Shown here piece by piece: positions 2,964-13,238 of a stretch of 41,662 nt of DNA (the stretch's first letter is position 1; every line of letters starts with the position of its first letter). This DNA is from Streptomyces sp. NBC_01750 (GTDB lineage: Bacteria; Actinomycetota; Actinomycetes; Streptomycetales; Streptomycetaceae): positions 1 through 41,662 of the forward strand of contig NZ_CP109139.1 in NCBI RefSeq assembly GCF_035918095.1, written 5' to 3'. Position numbers and translations under genes: made by a program. Under the pieces are notes generated by a model, which worked only from the letters and a program-made list of their open reading frames with translations, searched no databases and was not told where the DNA came from.

Positions 2964-3550
2964 GGGTGCTCGAGGAACGCCGGCAGTGGAGGAGTGCCGG
3001 GTGTGGGTCGGTGGTGGGGCCGGCGCACCTCGTGCACCCGTCCGCCGGTCGAGCGGCTGCGGCTCGGTGGGTGGGGGCGCGGTCGGTCCGTAATCCTCCG
3101 TGGCCGGCGCCGTTGGCGGCTGCGGCGGGGTGGGGGTGGGAATGGACGGCAGGCAGCGGGGGGAGGGGTGCCGGGCTGATCATCGGTTCGGCGGCTGCCG
3201 GGGCCCGTTGGGGTGCGGACCGTGCCCCCGCCGTCGATCCGAACTGCGCGTGAGGCGAACGCACCCATAGCCCGTGGCGGGCGGGGAGCTATCAGCTGCC
3301 GCGATGTGGCCCGGGCCGGTGTGGTCGCTCCGCGTCGGTGCACGTTTCGTCGTGGCTGATGAGCGTGTCGTTTCCCCGTCGCACCGGTCCGTGCACCACC
3401 ACCGCCCAAGTGCCGTCGCGGTGGACCCGTGGACGCTGCCCGCCGACGAGGACGACAGCACCAGGACCACGACGAGCACCAGGAGCAGCAGCACGGGCCG
3501 GGGCCGCGCCGTCGAGGAGGACCGCCGATCGGTTCGCGTGTACAAGCTAA
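2964..3550. repeat. Long repeat LR1
   Basis: About 590 bp with no convincing gene. It aligns along most of its length, by eye, with 7471-8025 (LR2, same orientation) and, inverted, with 18779-19140 (LR3). Shared landmarks are GGGTGCTCGAGGAACGCCGG at the left edge (LR1 and LR2 only), TCCGTAATCCTCCGTGGC, GGAGCTATCAGCTGCCGCG, and the terminal GTGTACAAGCTAAA. It ends at promoter A. See the findings for antisense frames within it. Confidence 0.8.
3539..3544. repeat. TGTACA palindrome, copy 2 (end of LR1)
   Basis: GCGTGTACAAGCTAAA, an imperfect version of the palindrome, sits at the right edge of LR1 and about 55 bases upstream of the promoter A -35 box. Confidence 0.65.
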
Positions 3551-3598
3551 ACCCGGGCAGAAATGTGCTTTGACCTGCGTGTTTCTGTGCGACCAGAG

Positions 3599-3627
3599 TT
3601 GACCGTGGGGCTCTATTGCTGTAGTCT
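3599..3627 (+). promoter_or_regulatory. Promoter A of the four-copy promoter family
   Basis: TTGACC, 17-bp spacer, TAGTCT. The spacer and -10 (CTCTATTGCTGTAGTCT) and the following TTTTACTTGTCGGAACGGG are nearly identical in promoter D; B and C are close relatives with the same 17-bp spacing. Drives 3695-4060 and 4132-4494. Confidence 0.75.
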
Positions 3628-3642
3628 TTTACTTGTCGGAAC

Positions 3643-3657
3643 GGGGAACGGCACCCC
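3643..3657 (+). promoter_or_regulatory. Leader hairpin with AACGGCA loop, copy 1
   Basis: GGGG-AACGGCA-CCCC about 15 bases after the likely transcription start. It is followed by an unpaired CACCACCAACACC run and a GAAAGGA ribosome site before ATG 3695. The same arrangement precedes five other start codons. Confidence 0.65.
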
Positions 3658-3694
3658 ACCCCGACACCACCAACACCCCGAAAGGACACAGCAC

Positions 3695-4060
3695 ATGAAC
3701 AACCCGGACAACACCCAGCCGCCGACCGTGACCGAGCGCAACGCCTACAGCGAAGAGGAGTTGGACAAGGCGACCGCGCAGTTCCTCGACCGCCACCTGA
3801 AGCCGATTGCGCGCGGCACCGGCCGCCACGTCGGTGAAGTGCTGGACGAGCTCGCGGAAGACCTGTTCACCGGCGGAGTGCTCGCCTACATGATGGCCAA
3901 CCGTCTGGCAGAGCAGGACCCCACCGTCAACGTCAACGCCAAGGCCGGCGTTTTCTTCGTGGCCATGCTCCGCAGGATGCCCGGGCGCGAGGGCCTGGCC
4001 GCATCTCTCGTGAGCACGATCTACCGGCAGGCCCGCGCCGCCGCAGGCATCCAGGACTGA
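3695..4060 (+). CDS. Unrecognised 121-residue acidic protein
   Basis: Starts at ATG 3695 after GAAAGGA. The N-terminus is polar and disordered-looking (MNNPDNTQPPTVTER). The rest reads as alpha-helical, with a charged helix around LDEL-AEDLFTGGVLAYMM and a short hydrophobic stretch (AKAGVFFVAMLRR) too short to be a confident membrane segment. No catalytic motif or zinc site. It is the first gene of a two-gene unit from promoter A, with 71 bases (including hairpin 4072-4100) before the next gene. Soluble and cytoplasmic by appearance; function unknown. Confidence 0.65.
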   Translation: MNNPDNTQPPTVTERNAYSEEELDKATAQFLDRHLKPIARGTGRHVGEVLDELAEDLFTGGVLAYMMANRLAEQDPTVNVNAKAGVFFVAMLRRMPGREGLAASLVSTIYRQARAAAGIQD

Positions 4061-4071
4061 CGCCATCCCAG

Positions 4072-4100
4072 CCGGGGGCGGGAACGGCACCCGCCCCCGG
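4072..4100 (+). promoter_or_regulatory. Leader hairpin with AACGGCA loop, copy 2 (intercistronic)
   Basis: The longest copy: a perfect 11-bp stem CCGGGGGCGGG/CCCGCCCCCGG around loop AACGGCA. A CACC-rich stretch and AGGAGAA precede ATG 4132. Its position between two co-transcribed genes shows the element is not simply part of the promoter. Confidence 0.7.
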
Positions 4101-4131
4101 TGTCACCACCGACACCGACAGGAGAAGCGAC

Positions 4132-4494
4132 ATGAACCAGGTCATCGTCTGGAACGAGCAGTGCGCGTGCGGAGGCAGCCTCTACGGCCGCATGGAAGAG
4201 CCGTGCGACCCCGAGTGCACCGGATACCTCCCCAACCCCGTGGAGACCGGCCGCGCGACCCTCTTCGCCCACGTCGACCGAGGGTCCCGCCGCGACGCCA
4301 CCACGGTGACCGTGCTCAACAACGGCGGTCGCAGCCGCCTGTTCGTCCAGGACGACGGCACCAGCGTGCCGCTCGCCCCCACCCTCCATCGCGCCATTGA
4401 CCGTGATGTGACCGAAGCCGCCCACGCCTACGCCCGCGCCGTCTACGGCCCCCGCCGCGCATGGCCCACCCGGTTCACCGTCAACCGCTACTGA
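4132..4494 (+). CDS. Unrecognised 120-residue protein with N-terminal Cys cluster
   Basis: Starts at ATG 4132 behind AGGAGAAGCGAC. The N-terminus carries CACGG at residues 11-15 and then CDPECTGY, four cysteines that could bind one zinc ion. The middle has alternating hydrophobic strands (TTVTVLNNGGRSRLFVQDD) and the end a short helix and an aromatic/basic tail (YGPRRAWPTRFTVNRY). Second gene of the promoter A unit, closed by the hairpin at 4512-4533. No known family is recognised; small and cytoplasmic by appearance. Confidence 0.65.
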   Translation: MNQVIVWNEQCACGGSLYGRMEEPCDPECTGYLPNPVETGRATLFAHVDRGSRRDATTVTVLNNGGRSRLFVQDDGTSVPLAPTLHRAIDRDVTEAAHAYARAVYGPRRAWPTRFTVNRY

Positions 4495-4511
4495 CCACCC
4501 GTCACCACCCC

Positions 4512-4533
4512 GGCCCCCGCTCCAGCGGGGGCC
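4512..4533 (+). terminator. Terminator of the promoter A unit
   Basis: GGCCCCCGCT and AGCGGGGGCC form a perfect 10-bp stem 18 bases after the stop, followed by TTT. A TGTACA palindrome follows directly, as at 8881 and 25021. Confidence 0.7.
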
Positions 4534-4540
4534 TTTCGCT

Positions 4541-4546
4541 TGTACA
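4541..4546. repeat. TGTACA palindrome, copy 3
   Basis: CGCTTGTACAAGCCAAAA immediately after the terminator and about 50 bases upstream of the promoter B -35 box. Confidence 0.65.
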
Positions 4547-4597
4547 AGCCAAAACCGCGAAACGGTTGCTGACCAGCGAATTTACCCGCGTGTCGGG

Positions 4598-4626
4598 TTG
4601 CCGATGGTGCTCTATTGCTGTATTCT
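4598..4626 (+). promoter_or_regulatory. Promoter B of the four-copy family
   Basis: TTGCCG, 17-bp spacer, TATTCT. The spacer ATGGTGCTCTATTGCTG is identical to that of promoter D. Drives the unit beginning at 4697. Confidence 0.75.
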
Positions 4627-4641
4627 TTTGAGTGTCGGAAA

Positions 4642-4656
4642 GGGGAACGGCACCCC
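4642..4656 (+). promoter_or_regulatory. Leader hairpin with AACGGCA loop, copy 3
   Basis: GGGG-AACGGCA-CCCC in the promoter B leader, followed by CCACCAACACC and GAAGGGA before ATG 4697. Confidence 0.65.
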
Positions 4657-4696
4657 GGACCGGCGGTCCACCAACACCAACGAAGGGAACAGAGCG

Positions 4697-5167
4697 ATGG
4701 ACGAGACGACCAACACGGACCGCGCGGAGAGGGGGGCGGCAGTGATCGCGGCGTTCCTGGCCGCCGCTGCCACCGCAGGAGCGACGCTCACCCCGGGCGA
4801 CCGCGCCGAGCTGGGCCGCGCGGCCGTCGAGGCGTACCCCCTCGGCAACGACGACCCCGACGAGACGCTGAGCTTCACTCTCGCCGACATCTACCACCAC
4901 GCGGACGGGGTGAAGGCCCCTCACGCACTGCTCGGCGCGGCCCTGATGGAGCTCTCCACCACGGTCAACGTGCTGCCCGTGCTCGGCGCGCTCGGCGACG
5001 ACGGCCGCTCCGGCATCCTCGCGTGCGCGGTCGCGGCCATCCTCGCGCACGGCGACGAGCAGGGCGTATGCGTCCACGAGGTCACCGACCGCGCTTACGA
5101 CCACTGGGCCGACGAGGCCGAGGAAGAGCGCTTCATGCGCGTCCGCGCCGAGCGCTACGCGAAGTAG
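4697..5167 (+). CDS. Unrecognised 156-residue alanine-rich acidic protein
   Basis: Starts at ATG 4697 after GAAGGGAACAGAGCG. Mostly helical and acidic, with Ala-rich helices (AAVIAAFLAAAATAG; ILACAVAAILAHG) and a charged C-terminal helix (DEAEEERFMRVRAERYAK). The hydrophobic stretches are amphipathic rather than membrane-like. First gene of the promoter B unit; 63 bases with a copy of the leader hairpin separate it from 5231. It resembles the next gene in size, acidity and helical character, so the pair may be distant duplicates, but I cannot demonstrate this. Function unknown. Confidence 0.65.
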   Translation: MDETTNTDRAERGAAVIAAFLAAAATAGATLTPGDRAELGRAAVEAYPLGNDDPDETLSFTLADIYHHADGVKAPHALLGAALMELSTTVNVLPVLGALGDDGRSGILACAVAAILAHGDEQGVCVHEVTDRAYDHWADEAEEERFMRVRAERYAK

Positions 5168-5180
5168 CCCCCACCGCCGA

Positions 5181-5203
5181 GGGGCGGGAACGGCACCCGC
5201 CCC
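5181..5203 (+). promoter_or_regulatory. Leader hairpin with AACGGCA loop, copy 4 (intercistronic)
   Basis: GGGGCGGG-AACGGCA-CCCGCCCC, a perfect 8-bp stem, then GGCACCACCACCGAAGGGA before ATG 5231. Closely matches copy 2 in stem and position. Confidence 0.7.
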
Positions 5204-5230
5204 CCGGCACCACCACCGAAGGGAAACGAC

Positions 5231-5728
5231 ATGTCCGACGACGTGACCGGCGCAGACCGCGCCGCATGGGCCGCCATCGCACTGGCCGCCTACAACGACG
5301 AGGCCCCCGACCACCTGTTGCCCCTGCCCACCGCCGCCGAGCGCGAACGGTTCGGCATCCTCGCCGCCGAGGCCATGGCCCGCACGATCCGGCACAACCC
5401 CGCCGACCAGGCGGTGAACTGCCGCGAGCGTGCAGACGAGACGATCGGCGACCTGATCGCCTACGTGTTCCACCTCGTTGACGGCCGGGTGACTCCCGAC
5501 CAACTCACCCGCGCCGCCGAGGAGATGCGCAGCCCGTACCCCATTCGGCTGGACGCGGTCTGTGTGGTGGCCGCCGCCGACGTCGACCGGGTGGCCGCGA
5601 TGCTCGCCGCACTCATGGAGGCCGCCATTTCGTTCGGGTGCGACGTGCCCGCGATGCTCGCCGACTCCCGCACGTGCTACGAGGAGGCGAAGGCCGAGGA
5701 GGAGGCGAACGAGCAGACCAACGCATGA
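5231..5728 (+). CDS. Unrecognised 165-residue acidic helical protein
   Basis: Starts at ATG 5231 after GAAGGGAAACGAC. Predominantly helical and Ala/Asp/Glu-rich, with a long central segment around AAADVDRVAAMLAALMEAAISFG and a highly acidic tail (EEAKAEEEANEQTNA). Four cysteines are scattered, not paired. No motif I recognise. Second gene of the promoter B unit, followed by a structured non-coding stretch. Likely a soluble cytoplasmic protein; role unknown. Confidence 0.65.
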   Translation: MSDDVTGADRAAWAAIALAAYNDEAPDHLLPLPTAAERERFGILAAEAMARTIRHNPADQAVNCRERADETIGDLIAYVFHLVDGRVTPDQLTRAAEEMRSPYPIRLDAVCVVAAADVDRVAAMLAALMEAAISFGCDVPAMLADSRTCYEEAKAEEEANEQTNA

Positions 5729-6066
5729 GCCACGGGGGCGGGGCGGGAACCCCGCCCCCCGGGCAGCGCCCGGAGACGACAACGGGCCGGTGGGACACCC
5801 CGAGGGGTGACGGCATCCACCGGCCCAGCGCTCCCACCAACACCGGCCCGAAAGGCCGAATGGAAAGCAGGACCAGTGTAGACCGGACCGGCGGACAGCC
5901 GGCACCCCCGCCGCGGGGGCGGAGCGGAGCGCGACGGCATCGAGCCGCCGCGCCCCGCGCTGCCGCCGGCCAACCGCCCCGCCGTTCCAACACGGCCCCA
6001 CCCGCAGGAGGGAGCCAGCCCACTGGCCCCATACCCTCGCAACCAGCACAACCAGGAGAAACACTC
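5729..6066 (+). other. Structured intercistronic stretch with a repeat
   Basis: About 340 bases with no convincing separate gene. It contains a hairpin (GGGCCGGTGG near 5785 pairing with CCACCGGCCC near 5819) and a seventh, partial leader signature (CCACCAACACC, then GAAAGG before ATG 5860). Bases 5931-5973 are also found in similar form at 10053-10095 (core GGCATCGAGCCG...CCCCGCGCTGCCGCCGG). ATG 5860 is in frame with the 6067 gene, so that protein could be 123 residues with a proline-rich N-terminus. Confidence 0.5.
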
Positions 6067-6231
6067 ATGATCACACTGCCCCAGGCGTCCGCCGCGTGGA
6101 TTCGCCGCGCGACCCCAGCCGAACGCCGGACCTACATGCAGACCGGTTCCCGGGGCCCGGGGATGCCCGTGGACCTGCGGCCGGCATCCACGCGCATGGC
6201 GGAAGTGCACAAGGTTCTCAACACCCGCTGA
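6067..6231 (+). CDS. Unrecognised 54-residue basic protein
   Basis: ATG 6067 has a good ribosome site (AGGAGAAACACTC). The sequence is basic and compact (AAWIRRATPAERRTYMQTG) and ends in MAEVHKVLNTR; one or two short helices are likely. An in-frame ATG at 5860 with a leader-like upstream region would add 69 low-complexity residues, so the start is not settled. It lies 57 bases upstream of the helix-turn-helix gene 6289 and is probably co-transcribed with it. Function unknown. Confidence 0.5.
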   Translation: MITLPQASAAWIRRATPAERRTYMQTGSRGPGMPVDLRPASTRMAEVHKVLNTR

Positions 6232-6288
6232 TCACCCACCCGGGCCGCGCAGACGGCGGGGCCCGGCCCACCCGAAGGAGACGAGCCC

Positions 6289-6879
6289 GTGATTCCCCAC
6301 GGCCGCCCCACACTCGACATCCACGGCGTTGCCGACCGTGCCGGCGTCTCGCTGACGACCTGGCGCCGCTCGCATCACGCCGCGTTCGCGGCCGCGGTTC
6401 AGCCGCTCCCCGGATCACAGCGGCCCATCCTGTACGACGCCGCCCAGGTCGACGCCCACCTGTCCGGCAAGGCATTGCCGACGCTGCCCAAGACGCCGCA
6501 CCCCGACGATCTGCTGACGGACACCGAGACCGGCGCCGTCGCGGGAGTCAGCGCGTCCACGATCCGCGCCGACGCCGCCACCGGCCGCATGGACGCAGGC
6601 GTGGAGCGTCACGGCCGCCGATGGTGGACCCGCGCCGCCGCCGAGGCCCGCGCCGCCCGCCCGAGCGAGTACAAGGGCCGCACGCCAGGGGCCAAGGACA
6701 AGGCCCCCCGCAAGCGTCCGGATCACCGTGTGGCCGAGGTGGCCACTGAGTTGAAGCGCGCCGACGCCGGCCGGCGCACACCGGTCACCGCCGACGAGCT
6801 CGCCGAGCTCTACGACGTCAGCACGCGCACCGCCGAGCGCATCATGGCCAAGGCCCGCGCCACTCTCAACAAGTCCTAG
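6289..6879 (+). CDS. DNA-binding protein with three helix-turn-helix-like segments
   Basis: 196 residues from GTG 6289, preceded by CGAAGGAGACGAGCCC. Three helix-turn-helix-like segments appear in order: DIHGVADRAGVSLTTWRR near the N-terminus, TGAVAGVSASTIRADAATG in the middle, and TADELAELYDVSTRTAERI at the C-terminus. A basic linker (residues about 125-150, KGRTPGAKDKAPRKRP) joins the last two. This points to a cytoplasmic DNA-binding protein. Being encoded inside the promoter-family region, it is a candidate regulator of promoters A-D or of the TGTACA sites, which is inference. Its stop overlaps the stop of the convergent gene. Confidence 0.7.
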   Translation: MIPHGRPTLDIHGVADRAGVSLTTWRRSHHAAFAAAVQPLPGSQRPILYDAAQVDAHLSGKALPTLPKTPHPDDLLTDTETGAVAGVSASTIRADAATGRMDAGVERHGRRWWTRAAAEARAARPSEYKGRTPGAKDKAPRKRPDHRVAEVATELKRADAGRRTPVTADELAELYDVSTRTAERIMAKARATLNKS

Positions 6880-7436
6880 CCGGCCGACGCCGGCAGCGGC
6901 CGGCCGACATCGACGAGCAGACCGGCCGGGACACCACCGCGCATCCACGACTCAGCAACCGGAGACACAAGACCACCACGGCCGTGGAGGAGCGGGCCCC
7001 CGTGCTCGCCCATCAGCGCCCCCGCCTCCTCACCGGCCACGGGCAGACCGAGGTACGCGGCACCGGGCCGACGCCACGTCAGATCACGCACGGTCCCGCC
7101 CGCGGTCGAGCACCACGCGTGCTCGACGGGAAACGCCAGGTCCCAGGCCGACCCCTCCACATAGACGAGGTCACCCCCGGACGCCCACGCCCAGGACACC
7201 GACTCGATGAAGCACCGACCCGGCTCACCGGGCGGTTGCTCGCCGTCCGGCCACGGCGCAGGCGTGAACAGCCGGCCGTGCGCGAGCAGCAGGCCAGCGA
7301 GGGAGCTGTGAACCCAGCCAGGCCGAGCAGCACGGGCCCCGGCATCGATCCGCAGCCAGTCGACAAGCCAGCCCTCAGCGTCCGCCACAGACGCCGCGGC
7401 GACATCGCCACCCATCGCGTCACTGTCCATGTCCAT
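6876..7436 (-). CDS. Uncharacterised protein with YVEG / EHAWC / DLTW motifs
   Basis: 186 residues from ATG 7436, chosen because GGAAG lies about 10 bases upstream; a GTG further up (7457) is possible. The core reads RCFIESVSWAW, then LVYVEGSAW, PVEHAWC, VRDLTW and AAYLGLPV. I recall the order YVEG, HAW, D-x-TW, Y-x-G-x-P from a widespread family of unknown function in bacteria and phages. The spacing of Cys75, His107 and Asp118 would suit a papain-like or transglutaminase-like triad, which is speculation. It is convergent with 6289-6879; the stop codons overlap (6876-6879), so it has no terminator of its own there. Confidence 0.65.
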   Translation of the reverse strand: MDMDSDAMGGDVAAASVADAEGWLVDWLRIDAGARAARPGWVHSSLAGLLLAHGRLFTPAPWPDGEQPPGEPGRCFIESVSWAWASGGDLVYVEGSAWDLAFPVEHAWCSTAGGTVRDLTWRRPGAAYLGLPVAGEEAGALMGEHGGPLLHGRGGLVSPVAESWMRGGVPAGLLVDVGRPLPASAG

Positions 7437-7874
7437 GCCGCCCAGTCTTCCGCACACCGCCGCGGTGCTCGGGTGCTCGAGGAACGCCGGCGAGCGCGGA
7501 GCCAGGCGCGGACCGGGGCCAAGGCCGGCGCACCTCGTGCACCCGGGTGTGGTCGAGCGTCTGCGGGCTGGTGGGTGGTGCGCGGTTGGTCCGTAATCCT
7601 CCGTGGCCTGGTGCGTTGGCGGCTGCGGCGGGGTGGGGGTGGGAAAGGACGGCAGGCGGCGGGGGGAGGGGTGCCGGGCTGATCACCGGTTCGGCGGCTG
7701 CCGGGGCCCGTTGGGGCTCGGACCGTACCCCCGCCGTCACGGATGACGGGCGCGTGAGGCGAACGCACCCATAGGCCGTGGCTGATGGGGAGCTATCAGC
7801 TGCCGCGATGTGGCCCGGGCCGGTGTGGTCGCTCCGCGTCGGTACCGGTCTCGTCGTGGCCAGGGCGCGTGTCG

Positions 7875-8018
7875 TCACCCCGCCGCATCCCTCGTCGGCA
7901 ACCACCGCCCAAGCCCGTCACGGCGAGCCCGTGGGCGCTCCCCGCCGTCGAGGACGAGCAGCACCAGGACCACGACCACCACGGCGACGAGCAGGCCGAC
8001 ACGGGTTCGCGTGTACAA
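7875..8018 (-). CDS. Possible 47-residue single-span membrane peptide antisense in LR2
   Basis: Starts at the TTG of the TGTACA palindrome (MYTRTRVG), continues with VGLLVAVVVVVLVLLVL, a good membrane helix, and ends with a basic tail (RPRARRDGLGRWLPTRDAAG). LR1 encodes the same start (MYTRT) and a similar span (VLLLLVLVVVLVL) in the corresponding antisense frame from 3545, but there the frame continues to 3180. LR3 lacks this segment. No ribosome-binding site is evident, so this may be a chance frame. Confidence 0.25.
   Translation of the reverse strand: MYTRTRVGLLVAVVVVVLVLLVLDGGERPRARRDGLGRWLPTRDAAG
8012..8017. repeat. TGTACA palindrome, copy 4 (end of LR2)
   Basis: GCGTGTACAAGCTAAA at the right edge of LR2, same context as copy 2, about 65 bases upstream of the promoter C -35 box. 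Confidence 0.65.
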
Positions 8019-8082
8019 GCTAAAAGATCTTGAAAGCTCGATACGTCATGCCTCTGACCTGCGGTTTCGCGCAGGCCTTCAC

Positions 8083-8111
8083 TTGCCTGTGGCGCTCTAG
8101 TGCTGTAATCT
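8083..8111 (+). promoter_or_regulatory. Promoter C of the four-copy family
   Basis: TTGCCT, 17-bp spacer, TAATCT. The spacer GTGGCGCTCTAGTGCTG differs from that of B and D at three positions, making C the most diverged member. Drives 8181-8825. Confidence 0.7.
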
Positions 8112-8126
8112 ATTATATGTCGGGAA

Positions 8127-8141
8127 GGGGTGCGGCACCCC
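8127..8141 (+). promoter_or_regulatory. Leader hairpin, copy 5 (variant loop)
   Basis: GGGGTGCGGCACCCC: the loop starts TGC instead of AAC, extending the stem. It is followed by ACCACCAACACC and GAAAGGA before ATG 8181, as in the other leaders. Confidence 0.6.
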
Positions 8142-8180
8142 GGAACGGCAGACCACCAACACCCCCCGAAAGGACCCGAT

Positions 8181-8825
8181 ATGACGAACACCGCGACTCT
8201 CAAGGCCCAGGCTGCCCCCGCTGGTCTGGAGGTGCTGAACGTCGGTGAGCAGAACGCCCGTATGGACCCCGACCAGCGGAACGGCACCCTTTCGACCCTG
8301 GTCTGTGGTCGTGCGGGCAACAAGATGGAGTTCCCCGCCAAGTGCTACCAGGGGTGGACTGTCCGCGTCGGCCGCAAGACCGTAACCGGGACCTACGCGA
8401 CCGTCGTTGCGGCCATCCGCGAGTACGTCGCACGCGTCGACCCCGCCGCCGTCACCGAAGCCGTACGGCTCCAGGAGGAGACAGCCCGCATCCTGGCCCA
8501 GCGCGCAGCCGACTACGCCGCCCGCGAGGCCGAGGGCGCCGCAGCGGTCGAGCGGGCGCGTGCCGCCGGGCAGCGCGCCAGCACCGCCGCCCACCTGGTG
8601 GACGAGGCCTACGCCGACCGCCAGGCCCCCGAGAACGCGTCGGACCACGCCTATGACTACGCGCGCCAGGCAACGGAGCGCGTGAACGAGTGCGTGAGTC
8701 TGAACAGCAGGCGCCCCGCGTACTGGTTCGAGTCCGTGGCCCGCCTCGCCGAGTGCGCCGAGCAGGCCGCCGCCGAGTGCGAGCGGGTCGCCAGGCACTA
8801 CGGCCTGATCTCTCCCGCCGCCTGA
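8181..8825 (+). CDS. Unrecognised 214-residue protein with helical C-terminal half
   Basis: Starts at ATG 8181 after GAAAGGACCCGAT. Residues about 15-85 look like a compact alpha/beta domain (LSTLVCGRAGNKMEFPAKC; WTVRVGRKTVTGTYATVVAA). The remainder is Ala/Glu/Arg-rich helix, probably coiled coil, with several cysteines (ECVSLN, LAECAEQAAAECERVARHY). No catalytic signature or membrane segment. Sole gene of the promoter C unit, closed by a strong terminator. Its position beside the SprT-like gene under a sister promoter suggests a shared expression programme, not a shared function. Role unknown. Confidence 0.65.
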   Translation: MTNTATLKAQAAPAGLEVLNVGEQNARMDPDQRNGTLSTLVCGRAGNKMEFPAKCYQGWTVRVGRKTVTGTYATVVAAIREYVARVDPAAVTEAVRLQEETARILAQRAADYAAREAEGAAAVERARAAGQRASTAAHLVDEAYADRQAPENASDHAYDYARQATERVNECVSLNSRRPAYWFESVARLAECAEQAAAECERVARHYGLISPAA

Positions 8826-8834
8826 CACCCCACA

Positions 8835-8872
8835 GGCCGTGCCCCCCTCCCAACACGGAGGGGGGTACGGCC
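8835..8872 (+). terminator. Terminator of the promoter C unit
   Basis: A roughly 16-bp stem (GGCCGT and CCCCCCTCC pairing with GGAGGGGGG and ACGGCC) around loop CAACAC, ending in CTTT. A TGTACA palindrome follows at 8881. Confidence 0.75.
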
Positions 8873-8880
8873 CTTTCGCG

Positions 8881-8886
8881 TGTACA
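8881..8886. repeat. TGTACA palindrome, copy 5
   Basis: CGCGTGTACAAGCCAAGTCC directly after the terminator and about 60 bases upstream of the promoter D -35 box. Confidence 0.65.
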
Positions 8887-8948
8887 AGCCAAGTCCCGGA
8901 ATCCGGGCGGAAATGTGCTCTGACCTGCATGTTTCCGAGTGTCCAGAG

Positions 8949-8977
8949 TTGCCAATGGTGCTCTATTGCTGTAGTCT
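8949..8977 (+). promoter_or_regulatory. Promoter D of the four-copy family
   Basis: TTGCCA, 17-bp spacer, TAGTCT. The match to promoter A extends upstream for about 60 bases (GAAATGTGCT-TGACCTGC-TGTTTC...CCAGAGTTG), which suggests duplication of a whole promoter block. Drives 9062-9967. Confidence 0.75.
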
Positions 8978-8997
8978 TTTACTTGTCGGAACGGGAA

Positions 8998-9010
8998 GGG
9001 AACGGCACCC
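8998..9010 (+). promoter_or_regulatory. Leader hairpin with AACGGCA loop, copy 6
   Basis: GGG-AACGGCA-CCC, the shortest stem of the family, then GCCACCAACACT and a TAGGAAAG ribosome site before ATG 9062. Confidence 0.55.
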
Positions 9011-9061
9011 AAACCCTCCGGCAGGCCACCAACACTCGCCCCGCACGATAGGAAAGCCTCG

Positions 9062-9967
9062 ATGACTGCCACGACCACCACCGCCGCGATCCCCACCCAG
9101 GCCCAGCCCGTCGCCGAGAACAGCAACGAGCACGGCAGCCGCCTCATCACCGCCCTTGAGGGCGCATGGGCTGCCATCCAGGCCCAGCACCCCGAGGTGC
9201 CCCACGTCCTCATGATCACGGGCACCGGGCGAAAGGCCAACAGCATGACGTGGGGGCACTTCGGTGAGAAGCGCTGGACAGTCGAGACGGAGAGCGGCAC
9301 CAAGACCGGACGGACGCACGAACTGTTCGCAGGGGGCGAGCTGTTGAGCCTGGGAGGTCTCAGGACCATGCAGACGCTCTTGCATGAGGCCGCCCACGCC
9401 CTTGCCCACGTCCGCAAGATCAAGGACACGTCCAGTGACTACCGGTACCACAACAAGCGATTCGTGAAGCTCGCCGAAGAACTCGGACTCGCCGGACCCG
9501 CGACCCCCGAGAACGTCAACGGCTGGAACCAGTGCACCATCACCGACGCCGCCGCCCAGCGGTACACCGAGGCGATCGCCGCACTGGACGCCGCCCGACT
9601 CCCGTACGTGTACGACCCGGTCGCCCTCATGCTCGGCAAGGGCACCCGCCCCACCACCGGAGGCGACGACGACGGCAGCGACGACGACACCACCGAAGGC
9701 GGAACCGGAGGCGAGGGAGGCGAAGGAGGCGACGACGACCCCAAGCCGAAGAAGCGCCCCACCCGCTTTCTCGTCATCTGCGGATGCATCGAGAAGGACG
9801 AGGACGGCACCCCGAAGCTGGACAAGGCCGGGAAGCCGAAGCCCGGACGCGCCATCCAGGTCAGCCGCAAGAGCTGGGAGTTCGGCACCGTCGAGGGCGG
9901 CGACGAAGGTGGTCTGATGTGCGGACGGTGCAAGCAGCCGTTCCGCAAGGCCGACCCCGACGCCTAG
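9062..9967 (+). CDS. SprT-like zinc metalloprotease domain protein
   Basis: 301 residues from ATG 9062. TLLHEAAHALAHVR supplies HEAAH (H108, E109, H112), and YRYHNKRFVKLAEELGL supplies a third ligand, H130, in the arrangement of SprT/Spartan-type domains. A low-complexity Gly/Asp linker (residues about 200-225) leads to a C-terminal zinc ribbon with C240, C242, C287 and C290, as in SprT proteins. Spartan proteases cut DNA-protein crosslinks, and related domains occur in phage and plasmid proteins, including ArdC-type anti-restriction proteins. A role in protecting incoming plasmid DNA is therefore plausible but unproven. Sole gene of the promoter D unit. Confidence 0.8.
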   Translation: MTATTTTAAIPTQAQPVAENSNEHGSRLITALEGAWAAIQAQHPEVPHVLMITGTGRKANSMTWGHFGEKRWTVETESGTKTGRTHELFAGGELLSLGGLRTMQTLLHEAAHALAHVRKIKDTSSDYRYHNKRFVKLAEELGLAGPATPENVNGWNQCTITDAAAQRYTEAIAALDAARLPYVYDPVALMLGKGTRPTTGGDDDGSDDDTTEGGTGGEGGEGGDDDPKPKKRPTRFLVICGCIEKDEDGTPKLDKAGKPKPGRAIQVSRKSWEFGTVEGGDEGGLMCGRCKQPFRKADPDA

Positions 9968-10052: not shown

Positions 10053-10095
10053 GAAGCGGCATCGAGCCGCTACACCCCGCGCTGCCGCCGGGACA
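10053..10095. repeat. Second copy of the 5931-5973 repeat
   Basis: GCGGCATCGAGCCGC, itself a small hairpin, then CCCCGCGCTGCCGCCGG, matching the copy in the 5.9 kb intercistronic stretch. Both copies follow a GCCGGCACCC-type hairpin. The rest of 9968-10217 shows no gene. Confidence 0.55.
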
Positions 10096-10673: not shown

Positions 10674-13238
10674 GTGCGTCCTCCAACACCGCGGAGCTCT
10701 GCCATTGTGGCACACACCCACGGTGGCGGAAGAGGCTTGCCTCAGACCGGTGTGTCATCAGCGTTTTATCGACAAGACGACCCCGTATCCGCCGCCGTAT
10801 CCGATTCATCCCCTGTGTACGCAGGGGCTTTCACCCTGCGTGCCGCCGAGTTGCGGGCGCAGGCGCACCGGACGCTGACCCGGTTCCTGACAGAGCTCTA
10901 CTGGGACAGGACCGTGCGGGCGGCAGCCGGCATGCCCGGGGCGTGGCTGAACAGCTACCCGCCCACGGGTTACGAGCCGATCGTGGGCATGGACCTTGAC
11001 CGGCCGCTGGCCGTGCACCTGTCCCGTGGAGCGCGCCGCAACGGTGCCCGCCGTTTCTGGGCCGTCGTGTTCGACTGCGACACCAAGAAGGTGTCGACCG
11101 CCCAGGCCGCCGCCGATGCCGCGCTGTTGGCCCAGGCCGCGCAGGCCGAGGGCATCGGCGCGGTGCCCGCCGCCTCCGGGTCGCCCGGCGGCATCCACGT
11201 GTGGACCGGCTGCGCCGAGGGCGTGGCCCCGTCCGTGGTCGCGCGGATCAACGAGGCCGCCGCGCTGCTGTGCCCCTCGCTGGACAAGGCTCCGCTCAAC
11301 AATGCGACGGACGCCCTGATCAGGCCGCCCGGAGCCGCCCACCGTAGCGGCGGGTACAGCACCCTGACCGCGCACACCGTGGACGAGGCCGTCAAGCTGT
11401 TGGGTCCCAAGTCCGCCCCCGCAGGCGCGTTCGAGCGACTTGCCGTGCGCCTTGAGGCCATGGCCGCCGAGCTGCCCGCCGTCGTGGGCGCGCCGGAGCA
11501 GCCGACCACGGACGCGGTGCCCGCCAACGCGGCGGCACCGACAGGGCACCGGGGGCGCAAGGTGCCGCCGTCGATCCGGCAGCGCGGCCCGCGTGTGCGG
11601 CGGATCGTCGAGGACGCGGCCGGGTGCCCGAAGGTCGATGCGCCGTGGCGACCGCTCGGCGAGAAGGCGCTGAGGGGCTTGCGACGTACGCCGTCGCGCC
11701 GTGACGATCACTCCAACTTCAAGCACGCCCCCGCGCGTTCCATGGCCCTGGCGGGCTGGACGCAGGCCGAGGGCCTGGCCGTGGTGCGCGACGCGGCATC
11801 GTCGCCCGCGCTGGAGTACCTGCGCAGCGAGCGCCAGGAGGACGGCAGCCGCCGCCATCGCGCCGAGGACGAGACGAAGCGGCTGTGGTCGCGGGTGTGG
11901 TTCCTCGCGGTCGAGGACGCGGCCCGGATGCCGCGCCGCCCGGAGGACGACGGCCGCCACAGCGAGGCAGGCGAGGCACAGCAGGCGGTAGCCGACCTCA
12001 TGGCCCGGATGCAGGCCGCCGGACCGGCACGGTGGGGCAGGGAGTCGGGACCGGCAGACGCCGCGATCCTGTCCGCCCTGGCCCTGTTGATGCTGATCGC
12101 GGGCACCACCGACGTGTCCGCCAACGTCCGCAGGCTCGGCGTGCTCGCCGGATACAGCGCCCAGACGGCCGCCCTGGCCCTGTGGCGGCTCATCCGGGAC
12201 GGATGGATCACCGTGACCGCCGAGGCGGAGCGCAGGGTCGGGAAGGCCCGCCGGGTGAGTCTGGCGACCAGCCACGAATGCCCCGACCACCACCGCCACC
12301 TTTGCGCGATCTACCACCCCACGGACGACGTTGCACCAGGTCACCCGGGGTCTTACAGAAGTGGAACGCCCCGCCCCCCCGCCCCCTCTACGGTCTCTCT
12401 CGGGTCTCTGCGTGCGCTTCTGACGCACCAGCAGGCGGACGTGTGGCACCACCTCGGGCACCACGCGGCACGGACATTGTGGACCCTCCGGCAGCGCAGG
12501 CGGTGCAGCCTCGCCGACCTCATGACTGCCACCGGCTACGGCCGCCGTGCGACGCTCCGCCACGTCCACCGCCTGATGGGGCTCCAGTTGGTCACCCCGG
12601 GCCCCAGCCGCCGAGGAGAGCCCACCTACGCCGCCACCGACCGGTCCCTGTACGAGGCCGCCGAGCAGGTCGGAGGCCAGACCGCCGGGCGCATGGCCCG
12701 CCTGGCGAAGCGCTACCGCGTGGAGCAGGCCGTCAGCGAGTGGTGGGCCGCCGAGGAGATCCACCGGTCCCTCCCCCGTGCCGAGCGCCCGCGCCGCGCC
12801 GCCCCCGAACAGACCGTCATCGAGGGCATGGACCCCCGCGGCCGTGCCTACCCCCGCTACCCCAACGCCCGGGGCCAGGCCGAGAAGGGCCGCCCTGACC
12901 ACCTGCGCGCCCGCCTCATCGAGTCCCAGCGCATCGGAGCCCCCGGCATCCTCGCTCACGCCCAGCAGCTCGCCCGCGCCGGAGAGCTGATCGACCTGCC
13001 CCACCTCAGCGCCACCGGAGCCGACCAGCCCCCGGCAGCGCCGACCGGCCGCCGAGCGGTGATCCCCTCCCGGGCGCACTGCCCGCACTGCCACGCGGCC
13101 CCCGGCGAGCGGTGCGTCACGTGGGGCATCAAGGGCGGGAAGCCGGCCGCACGGTGGCACCAGGCCCGCCGCCTGGCCGCCCACGCCCAACAGACCCAGC
13201 CCGCCGCGATCGCGACAGCGCGACACACGGACAGGTGA
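10674..13238 (+). CDS. Plasmid replication initiator with primase-polymerase-like domain
   Basis: 854 residues from GTG 10674; GTG 10752 is an alternative start. The N-terminal third resembles the archaeo-eukaryotic primase fold: VVFDCD (D134, D136), SGSPGGIHVW (H175) and DALIRPPGAAHRSGG (R217), the metal-binding, His and basic motifs in the usual order. The middle carries helical, possibly winged-helix segments (e.g. DVSANVRRLGVLAGYSAQTA; SLADLMTATGYGRRATLRHV). The C-terminus ends in a zinc unit C803, C806, C814, H829, like that of the resolvase. It would act in the cytoplasm to start plasmid replication and perhaps prime synthesis. Family is inferred from motifs, not a search. Confidence 0.75.
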   Translation: MRPPTPRSSAIVAHTHGGGRGLPQTGVSSAFYRQDDPVSAAVSDSSPVYAGAFTLRAAELRAQAHRTLTRFLTELYWDRTVRAAAGMPGAWLNSYPPTGYEPIVGMDLDRPLAVHLSRGARRNGARRFWAVVFDCDTKKVSTAQAAADAALLAQAAQAEGIGAVPAASGSPGGIHVWTGCAEGVAPSVVARINEAAALLCPSLDKAPLNNATDALIRPPGAAHRSGGYSTLTAHTVDEAVKLLGPKSAPAGAFERLAVRLEAMAAELPAVVGAPEQPTTDAVPANAAAPTGHRGRKVPPSIRQRGPRVRRIVEDAAGCPKVDAPWRPLGEKALRGLRRTPSRRDDHSNFKHAPARSMALAGWTQAEGLAVVRDAASSPALEYLRSERQEDGSRRHRAEDETKRLWSRVWFLAVEDAARMPRRPEDDGRHSEAGEAQQAVADLMARMQAAGPARWGRESGPADAAILSALALLMLIAGTTDVSANVRRLGVLAGYSAQTAALALWRLIRDGWITVTAEAERRVGKARRVSLATSHECPDHHRHLCAIYHPTDDVAPGHPGSYRSGTPRPPAPSTVSLGSLRALLTHQQADVWHHLGHHAARTLWTLRQRRRCSLADLMTATGYGRRATLRHVHRLMGLQLVTPGPSRRGEPTYAATDRSLYEAAEQVGGQTAGRMARLAKRYRVEQAVSEWWAAEEIHRSLPRAERPRRAAPEQTVIEGMDPRGRAYPRYPNARGQAEKGRPDHLRARLIESQRIGAPGILAHAQQLARAGELIDLPHLSATGADQPPAAPTGRRAVIPSRAHCPHCHAAPGERCVTWGIKGGKPAARWHQARRLAAHAQQTQPAAIATARHTDR

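Follow-up and report, generated by a model that had tools for sequence, protein, structure and literature searches.

A recurrent hairpin-and-linker RNA leader precedes probable establishment genes on Streptomyces conjugative plasmids

In the CsrA/RsmA regulon one regulator acts on many leader hairpins, decoy RNAs carry the same motif, and CsrA reads GGA. ANTAR-target RNAs of Actinobacteria are leader hairpins read by protein and with conserved loop letters, described as dual stem-loops 2–25 nt apart with hexanucleotide loops (A1/G4) (PMC8164766). The establishment-gene regulatory sequences EGeRS1 and EGeRS2 of pLS20-family Bacillus plasmids are structured repeats ahead of clustered establishment genes, including ardC; EGeRS1, whose mechanism is given as unknown, is a conserved region of 400–600 bp with multiple inverted repeats and without a strong promoter, and EGeRS2 acts via a ribbon-helix-helix DNA-binding repressor (PMC8708921). 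The Start-Associated Sequences (SAS/ESAS) of cluster K mycobacteriophages, of unknown function in the published account, occur in 11–19 copies at the translation starts of non-structural phage genes as a 13-nt repeat (GGGATAGGAGCCC) that coincides with the ribosome site at the start codon; about half of them are accompanied by upstream inverted repeats, for which the authors saw little support for pairing in mRNA, and the consensus varies between subclusters (PMC3203893). Finally, the Frpo/ssi ssDNA promoters of F-like plasmids serve leading-region genes of conjugative elements and have their promoter boxes within folded DNA (PMC11541004).

Here we analyzed a 41,662-nt stretch of Streptomyces sp. 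NBC_01750 (NZ_CP109139.1, positions 1–41,662; the window), which encodes conjugation genes and shows similarity to Streptomyces plasmids. A preliminary description of this DNA had reported six sets of hairpin, C/A-rich run, ribosome site and ATG, and all six are found where it placed them (Table 1). The window contains the loop word AACGGCA 11 times, where 4.0 ± 2.0 copies would be expected, and 0 of 100 shuffles reached that count. The leaders are of two classes: class A starts 7–8 nt past a −10-like box, where the mRNA is predicted to begin, and class B is a stem of 8–16 bp downstream of a stop codon. Leaders 1, 3, 5 and 6 belong to class A; by eye, each lies downstream of a sigma-70-like promoter (TTGNCN-17-TANTCT), and each has a second, outer helix, GTCGG/CCGAC or GTCGG/CCGGC (4 of 5 bp in leader 5). 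As the first hairpin nucleotide of all four, leader 1 included, lies 8 nt past the −10 box, it should be the mRNA 5′ end. Leaders 2 and 4 belong to class B and do lie between co-directional genes as had been claimed, beginning 10 and 13 nt past the stop codon, respectively; a promoter within the upstream gene may serve them. The linker is shared by leaders 1, 3 and 5 and differs in the other three.

Table 1. Leaders, promoters, genes and satellite RNA in the window. R1 scores are those of the covariance model.
Feature	Position	Strand	Description
Leader 1 promoter	3599..3627	+	sigma-70-like TTGACC-17 nt-TAGTCT, by eye; −10 spacing checked over other copies
Leader 1	3635..3665	+	class A, GTCGG-aac-GGGG-AACGGCA-CCCC-acc-CCGAC, loop from 3647; R1 67.1 bits, copy used to build R1
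Leader 1 linker	3667..3677	+	CCACCAACACC; precedes GAAAGGA and ATG 3695
Gene after leader 1	3695..4060	+	without Pfam family
Leader 2	4071..4101	+	class B, 12 bp, loop AACGGCA from 4083; gene 1 stop codon upstream, ATG 4132 downstream
Leader 2 linker	from 4106		CCACCGACACC
Gene after leader 2	4132..4494	+	MNQVIVWNEQCACGG family, which has class A on L005
Leader 3 promoter	4598..4626	+	TTGCCG-17-TATTCT, by eye
Leader 3	4634..4664	+	class A, GTCGG-aaa-GGGG-AACGGCA-CCCC-gga-CCGGC, loop from 4646; R1 66.9 bits, copy in model
Leader 3 linker	4668..4678	+	CCACCAACACC; ATG 4697
Gene after leader 3	4697..5167	+	MDETTN family, which has class B on L002
Leader 4	5181..5203	+	class B, 8 bp, loop AACGGCA from 5189; flanked by co-directional genes, ATG 5231
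Leader 4 linker	from 5207		GCACCACCACC
Gene after leader 4	5231..5728	+	without Pfam family
Satellite RNA	5782..5887	+	upstream of tandem-HTH gene; 11-bp outer stem, inner hairpin
Tandem-HTH gene	6289..6879	+	encodes tandem winged-HTH "DNA-binding protein"; also found on all five complete relatives
Leader 5 promoter	8083..8111	+	TTGCCT-17-TAATCT, by eye
Leader 5	8119..8149	+	class A, loop TGCGGCA from 8131, outer helix 4/5 bp; R1 59.1 bits, copy in model
Leader 5 linker	8153..8163	+	CCACCAACACC; ATG 8181
Gene after leader 5	8181..8825	+	without Pfam family
Leader 6 promoter	8949..8977	+	TTGCCA-17-TAGTCT, by eye
Leader 6	8985..9022	+	class A variant, three short helices GTCGG/CCGGC, GGG/CCC, GGG/CCC, loop from 9001; R1 32.8 bits, not in model
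Leader 6 linker	9026..9036	+	CCACCAACACT; ATG 9062
Gene after leader 6	9062..9967	+	SprT-like, E 5e-4, below Pfam cut-off

The hairpins had been taken for a selected RNA structure and not a promoter part. For class B this reading stands: loop and linker are fixed and the stems covary (0.237 against 0.088 when shuffled), a value that 0 of 500 shuffles reached, with all slid registers at or below 0.071. A single plasmid from a second family gave the same outcome (0.188, with 0.051 when shuffled and 0 of 500 shuffles as high). In class A pairing is kept, yet covariation was not significant, since shuffles scored equally high in 500 of 500 cases in one test and in 68 of 500 in a second. The loop, said to be constant, is mostly AACGGCA, but the TGCGGCA loop of leader 5 can gain two further closing pairs. 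When leaders were folded in isolation, the RNAfold minimum was non-canonical in three of the four window class A leaders and canonical in the fourth, and the loop and inner stem were canonical in both class B leaders. The unpaired probability of the linker is 0.79 in 50 class A and 0.75 in 25 class B copies; for the region from −35 to −14 it is 0.62 in leaders against 0.44 in 33 hand-picked control genes, and the leader region from −30 to −14 contains 8% G. Judged by its N-termini, one gene family can be preceded by class A on one plasmid and by class B on a different one, which indicates that the hairpin follows the gene start and not the promoter.

These properties set the leaders apart from the systems above. 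Rfam gave no match in the whole window and, with E values up to 5, positions 3500–9100 returned just a weak Atu_C3 match on the opposite strand, far under the cut-off; nor did searches of open-licence papers turn up an element of this form. Like the CsrA/RsmA system, the window combines many leader hairpins with a separate RNA that carries the same motif, but the fixed loop is of the GGCA type. Unlike the ANTAR targets, the AACGGCA-type (F1) leaders have a single hairpin, a 7-nt loop and a downstream linker. Compared with the long EGeRS1 region, they are about 45 nt plus the ribosome site, stand before individual cistrons, come in two interchangeable forms and have a fixed loop and linker; EGeRS2 differs in working through its ribbon-helix-helix repressor. 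Their ribosome site is variable, GAAAGGA-like and apart from the conserved motifs, in contrast to SAS, and pairing of their class B stems is supported. Whereas Frpo/ssi boxes are part of the fold, the leader hairpin lies 7–8 nt past the −10-like box.

Hairpins of the AACGGCA type, the six window leaders included, were found in 90 distinct copies at 23 loci, and in 82 of the 90 a ribosome-site-like word follows, with an ORF of 35 codons or more that begins 35–61 nt past the loop. Among 392 genomes of the window's genus, the pattern GGGAACGGCACCC-N(4-34)-CCAACAC matched 10, and its reversed control gave 1 match in the whole set. A covariance-model search, proposed in the preliminary description, revealed relatives on other plasmids, model R1 matching 65 of the 392 genomes at E values up to 1e-3. 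The R1 clusters that we followed were G103, G006, G351, G266, G157 and G202, and not G370, G032, G104 and G069, among others; G218, L064 and 17 single matches outside Streptomyces were set aside as chance without inspection. Inspection of 20 single matches uncovered one new leader version (L079), seven occurrences of a single chromosomal hairpin unrelated to the leaders, and 12 matches that by eye had no leader context. On the window and on 5 of 5 complete relatives, the copies number 5–7 per plasmid and form clusters on one strand.

Three further element families (F2–F4) have the same layout with their own GGCA-containing loop and their own linker (ATGGCA with CTCGAAACCC, ATGGCAG with CCTTCAACACC and AGGGCAA with CTCTCACCA). 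The distance from the −10-like hexamer, located by a loose rule, to the first class A hairpin nucleotide is 8 nt in 33 of 36 F1, 32 of 33 F2 and 7 of 7 F4 copies, and 7 nt in 5 of 5 F3 copies. By eye, F3 leaders also contain a second GC hairpin ahead of the linker. The genes behind these leaders encode ArdC and DUF3560 proteins (F2), ParB_N and DUF2786 proteins (F3), or ArdC, ParB_N, methyltransferase and DUF3560 proteins (F4). The genes controlled in the window are mostly without known function, the weak SprT-like match being the only hint of counter-defence; the genes behind the leaders of F2–F4 suggest a probable establishment-gene regulon. The examined stretches of plasmids L135, L136, L138, L177 and L179 showed no leader of this type. 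These families, the counter-defence character of many genes that such leaders precede elsewhere, the class A outer helix and start-site position, and the satellite RNA described below had all been overlooked in the preliminary description.

The satellite is a single-copy RNA that carries both leader motifs, with ACGGCA in a 3′ internal loop followed by the linker CCACCAACACC, a small GGCC/GGCC hairpin and conserved GAATGGAAAGC and CCAGTGTAGACC. It is present at 21 of 21 loci scanned, and a strict satellite pattern matched 7 of 382 genomes, all seven of them also leader genomes. In one relative (L107) leader and satellite have an altered loop in common, and in another (L180) an altered linker; a third joint change, in L105, is partial or mixed, and an ordinary AACGGCA leader also stands at the end of that contig. 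Given that it holds the leader motifs, the satellite may be the regulated leader of the tandem-HTH gene itself or a decoy.

The tandem-HTH protein is a candidate regulator that probably acts on promoters. The structure predicted for it (mean pLDDT 89, pTM 0.58) gave weak Foldseek matches (best E 0.1; TraN, BldC, Xis), the top ones mostly DNA binders, and thus weakly resembles a dsDNA binder; for this reason we do not name it as the RNA reader. Of 382 genomes, 23 contain a homologue, and 15 of these 23 are without F1 leaders, one of them (G345) having a different leader version; no leader–satellite set was seen at 19 further homologue loci or in L177 and L179. Profile searches, with E values computed over a small ORF set, link the protein to F2 (4e-21 to 5e-20), to F4 (2e-6) and, weakly, to F3 (0.004); L136, in which we saw no leader, likewise has a match (2e-35). 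The related F3 and F4 proteins match one another with an E value of 1e-34. BLAST comparison of the window with F2 and F3 revealed no shared regulator beyond conjugation genes and a common HTH protein, and oriT was not located. No RNA-binding protein or sRNA acting in trans was identified.

Several other readings were tried and dropped. In the window we detected no antisense RNA directed at the linker, as the complements of CCACCAACACC with 0–1 mismatches there correspond to the minus strand of the satellite and of five leaders, plus a site at 10680; on an S. xanthii plasmid a 10-nt complement of its linker lies inside two repeats and was judged weak. Pairing of the linker with 16S rRNA is no general rule, as comparison with shuffled linkers is inconsistent across families: the F1 linker matches 16S rRNA over 9 nt at position 242, which 15 of 300 shuffled linkers equal, and the corresponding numbers are 300 of 300 for F2, 38 of 300 for F3 and 251 of 300 for F4. 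Regarding a phage origin, the leaders had no match in a phage collection, and viral contigs gave one match without leader context and none to the F2 pattern.

The element itself is well supported, and its positions, the class B covariation, the replicon-specific loop and linker versions and the joint leader–satellite change in two relatives are established. On balance, we favor the reading that the leaders are a replicon-specific RNA control element that acts per cistron and is read by a putative trans-acting factor. Each leader would be a cis-acting element serving one gene, composed of a hairpin with a fixed loop motif (AACGGCA here, GGCA in all versions), a G-poor unpaired linker and the ribosome site. 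Its location at the extreme mRNA 5′ end (class A) or between cistrons (class B) suggests action on each cistron after transcription start, at the level of translation initiation and/or mRNA stability, and loop and linker would probably be read by a factor specific to each replicon family. Such a factor is best supported by the joint leader–satellite changes and by each family having its own loop and linker; it is inferred, as are the sign of regulation and the timing after transfer. Because the controlled set resembles establishment genes (leading-region, counter-defence), the likely purpose would be joint, brief expression after entry into a new cell. More tentatively, Streptomyces conjugative elements might share an undescribed RNA addressing system in which a loop-and-linker address specific to the family marks every establishment gene. 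A separate satellite RNA bearing that address would set how active the reader is, giving counter-defence genes a post-transcriptional analogue of zygotic induction.

The main rival is a constitutive stabilizer or enhancer, an expression cassette in which the hairpin blocks 5′-end-dependent or 5′-to-3′ decay and insulates the ribosome site without any trans factor, class A being a 5′-terminal hairpin, class B a barrier and the G-poor linker an open standby site. We regard it as possible but doubtful. The predicted 5′-end position of class A, the strong class B stems, the scarcity of G and the openness of the leaders relative to the hand-picked control genes fit this account, and short inverted repeats before ardC on the Bacillus plasmid p576 are thought to prolong mRNA life (PMC8708921). 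A pure stabilizer, however, needs neither a fixed loop nor a fixed linker, does not call for both to be exchanged jointly in other replicon families, and requires no satellite RNA changing in step. Control of transcription, by an intrinsic terminator, an attenuator or a site like put, which is an antitermination site acting on RNA polymerase, would suit GC stems right past stop codons and hairpins at +1, but is improbable: the listed copies have no U run, a C/A-rich linker and ribosome site coming next instead, the gap from stop codon to hairpin in the window class B leaders is too short for a promoter, and the operons appear to be two genes long, which would leave processive antitermination little role. 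That the hairpins are ssDNA sites on the incoming strand, either ssDNA promoters (Frpo/ssi) or priming sites, is very improbable; the copies do cluster amid establishment-type genes, where ssDNA promoters are known (PMC11541004), but their −35 and −10 boxes lie upstream, outside the hairpin, class B has no adjoining promoter, and a DNA element would not need a fixed start-codon spacing. Least probable of all is an operator recognized as duplex DNA, perhaps by the tandem-HTH protein that is conserved alongside the elements and whose predicted fold weakly resembles DNA binders, with the pairing as incidental symmetry, as such an operator needs neither 8–16 bp arms that vary in sequence with pairing kept nor an F1 class B loop-to-linker distance ranging from 11 to 31 nt (22 copies).

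Thus, Streptomyces conjugative plasmids carry the same hairpin and unpaired tag before many little-known genes, some of them counter-defence genes, and the leader set resembles a so far undescribed switch, acting at the RNA level, for genes that are required on entering a new cell. The switching on of counter-defence genes at arrival is known mainly via ssDNA promoters and DNA-binding repressors, and a repeated RNA leader would add a third, directly testable route. The leader would also be a sequence tag that flags, on Streptomyces plasmids, establishment genes whose function is unknown, most of them being annotated as hypothetical, and its loop and linker versions are possible orthogonal control parts for antibiotic-producing hosts.

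The window is contig C3 (1-41,662) of an 8.98-Mb genome in three contigs and codes for a TraG/VirD4-type coupling protein, a PrgI-like protein, a relaxase, an NlpC/P60-transglycosylase protein and an RNase_T exonuclease. A similarity search revealed 99 related plasmid records, 97 of them from Streptomyces, and five complete circular Streptomyces plasmids of 43-48 kb have the backbone of the window in common, defining family F1. All six leaders claimed in the preliminary description, each comprised of a hairpin, an unpaired G-poor linker, a ribosome site and ATG, were found in the window, where the loop word AACGGCA occurs 11 times against 4.0 expected, a count reached in none of 100 shuffles. 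Nine of the 99 records were examined and contain dozens of further leaders; the window and all five complete relatives each carry 5-7 copies on a single strand in a single cluster. Across 23 loci we collected 90 distinct hairpins with the loop [ATG][AG]CGGCA. In 82 of these the loop is followed by a ribosome-site-like word and by an ORF (at least 35 codons) that starts 35-61 nt past it, while the remaining eight stand at stretch ends or before shorter or no ORFs. The exact leader pattern matched 10 of 392 genomes of the genus (control pattern, one match); nine matches are taken as genuine and the lone chromosomal one, in genome G218, as chance. Among 84,980 species genomes the pattern returned 28 stretches, of which the 10 inspected, all Streptomycetaceae, were judged real.

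The leaders take two forms. Class A, at the predicted mRNA 5' end, has the form GTCGG-nnn-GGGG-AACGGCA-CCCC-nnn-CCGRC, and the hairpin start lies 8 nt past a -10-like hexamer in 33 of the 36 F1 copies whose outer arm can be recognised (loose hexamer rule, spacings tried in the order 8, 7, 9, 6). In class B a stem of 8-16 bp stands behind a stop codon. The leaders had been proposed to be a selected RNA structure with varying stems and kept pairing, and class B bears this out: its covariation score over 30 copies is 0.237 versus 0.088 when shuffled (0/500 shuffles as high; slid registers, 0.071 at most), with the changes in the outer stem and the loop and inner stem constant. In class A, pairing is likewise kept (96.8% of outer-helix cells in 25 distinct copies; at most 57.6% over both helices in slid registers), but the outer helix is nearly invariant, too much so for covariation to show. 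Judged by N-termini, the MDETTN gene family carries class A in the window, L045 and L060 and class B in locus L002, and the MNQVIVWNEQCACGG family carries class B in the window and L060 and class A in L005. Because one gene family can carry either form, the hairpin is separable from the promoter, in agreement with the earlier view that these hairpins are not promoter parts.

Predicted folding of 82 leaders gave open probabilities for the loop of 0.89 (class A) and 0.99 (class B) and, among leaders with a linker found, for the linker of 0.79 (50 class A) and 0.75 (25 class B). The region from -35 to -14 was 0.62 unpaired in leaders versus 0.44 in 33 control genes hand-picked from three plasmids. 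In the single-sequence minimum both window class B leaders keep the loop and inner stem, and, contrary to the model, only one of four window class A leaders is canonical; among the alternative folds are some in which the 5' arm pairs with the loop or the coding region.

A class A covariance model, run against 392 genomes, brought out further versions. F2 (S. xanthii plasmid NZ_CP061283, i.e. G103:C3; S. sp. NBC_01732; pZL1) has class A as GTTGG-..-GGGG-(A/G)TGGCA-CCCC-..-CCGAC, class B as CCGGGGGCGGCGG-ATGGCA-CCGCCGCCCCCGG, and the linker CTCGAAACCC. Its strict class A pattern occurs in one of 392 genomes, in 17 copies on the contig listed for it (controls 0). F2 class B covaries (0.188 versus 0.051, 0/500 shuffles; 16 copies, one plasmid), and covariation of F2 class A is insignificant (68/500 shuffles as high). 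The F2 linker precedes 11 of the 17 genes annotated in the pZL1 stretch and, in the stretch of NBC_01732, 16 of 21, in one case within an earlier start. F3 consists of integrated elements in two genomes, one close to a phage-type integrase gene, with loop AGGGCAA and a more distant linker, CTCTCACCA; in its leaders (L102, L103) another GC hairpin separates the first one from the linker. F4 is the S. phaeochromogenes plasmid NZ_CP108590, with loop ATGGCAG and linker CCTTCAACACC. Finally, locus L107 combines loops ending in GTGGCA with the F1-type linker.

Other elements were seen alongside. Two near-identical repeats on the S. xanthii plasmid (L100, 12983 and 8975, minus strand) carry a 10-nt complement of its linker. 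A Nocardiopsis plasmid (L138, 12880 and 15836) has two copies of the hairpin GGGGCGGGGG-TCCCCAC-CCCCCGCCCC before starts and may represent a comparable system in a different order. The class A model also scores a conserved chromosomal hairpin, GTCGGCAAGGGCGGGAGCGGCTCCCCGCCCC.., in L096 and L097 and, reversed, in L080, L087, L089, L094 and L098; in L096 it does not stand ahead of the neighbouring ORF, which we take to be a cystathionine beta-synthase.

Features of the window other than the leaders
Feature	Position	Remark
GTGTACAAGC/TTGTACAAG palindrome	3537, 4539, 8010, 8879	Upstream of class A -35 boxes
GTGTACAAGC/TTGTACAAG palindrome	1458	Once more
Satellite RNA	5782-5887	Carries ACGGCA and CCACCAACACC
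Tandem-HTH gene	6289	Downstream of satellite
GC hairpin	5735-5760	Similar stem, no GGCA loop; directly after stop of gene 5231
Second conserved hairpin block	5936-5948, 10058-10070	GGCATCGAGCCGC within longer GC stem, then GCTGCCGCC
Duplicated stretch, ~450 bp	3050-3510, 7560-8020	Longest parts 88-93% identical; each copy precedes a class A promoter

The leader motifs recur in a separate conserved structured block, the satellite, with no ORF directly behind it. In ten copies 95.3% of cells are paired and few changes occur, the covariation score being matched by 2/500 shuffles. The strict satellite pattern is present in 7 of 382 genomes, all seven of them leader genomes, and absent in leader genomes G183 and G376; L113 (length and positions as G376:C2) has a divergent satellite, with inner helix CACCCC/GGGGTG versus GACCTCC/GGAGGTC. 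All 21 hand-chosen loci proved to contain a satellite in a looser scan; leader loci L046, L053, L058 and L104 were outside this set. By eye, leader and satellite are both changed to GTGGCA in L107 and both have the linker TCATCGACACC in L180. In L105 the satellite and one leader share CGGCACA and AACCAACATC, and the contig end has an ordinary AACGGCA leader. Mainly from this joint change, a single factor is expected to read both, the contrasts being few and judged by eye. The second hairpin block, whose GCTGCCGCC could pair alternatively with GGCGGCA, is present in two same-orientation copies in 8 of 20 loci, one in 2 and none in 10 (partial stretches).

The tandem-HTH protein is found in 23 of 382 genomes (E <=1e-10). 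Eight of the nine leader genomes are among them; in the ninth, G183, the leader lies on an 8.6-kb contig. Of the 23 genomes, 15 lie outside the F1 leader set; one of these, G345, carries the L107 version, and its homologue locus was the only one of 20 scanned to contain leader and satellite. Upstream of another homologue (L178, 4961) the order is reversed: CCACCAACACC, hairpin (loop TACGGCA), start. A profile search relates the protein to proteins of F2 and F4 and, less strongly, to F3, where the link is weak. The gene for the F2 homologue stands behind an aberrant leader, with the F2 linker in 3/3 plasmids and a GTGGCA loop in 2/3. Its structure model has two winged-HTH-like units and a third HTH, and Foldseek gave no match below E 0.1, the best ones including Enterococcus TraN (dsDNA-binding), BldC and excisionases. 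The protein may rather control the promoters. In each class A promoter a GTGTACAAGC-like palindrome, a possible operator for a DNA-binding regulator, stands some 50-75 nt ahead of the -35 box.

For a regulator at promoter level one site per operon would suffice; nearly every cistron of the cluster has its own element, of the form that fits its place, which points to action on translation or RNA stability. Recognition is suggested by the constancy of loop and linker, by their being exchanged together from one replicon family to another, and by the satellite; a putative factor would recognise loop plus linker. No Rfam family matches the element, and we found no description of this form in the open-licence literature; the nearest concepts are EGeRS1 (PMC8708921), SAS/ESAS (PMC3203893) and ANTAR targets (PMC8164766), whose defining features the leaders do not have.

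The genes behind the leaders include ArdC, DUF3560, YaaA and DUF6197 in F2, ArdC, ParB_N, DUF3560 and a methyltransferase in F4, and ParB_N and DUF2786 in F3; the ArdC leader of NBC_01732 is off-consensus (GTGGCG, CTCGAAACCG). For R388 to pass from E. coli to Pseudomonas putida, ArdC is reported to have to be expressed in the recipient (PMC7213743), and conjugative elements often carry ArdC-type proteins (PMC5512222); for these reasons we call the gene set a probable establishment regulon. The controlled genes of the window itself show only a weak SprT-like match, and from the family resemblance of their leaders we infer that they may form such a set. By analogy with establishment genes, the controlled genes would be expected to be repressed in a settled host, the candidate directions being repression lifted at entry, or activation.
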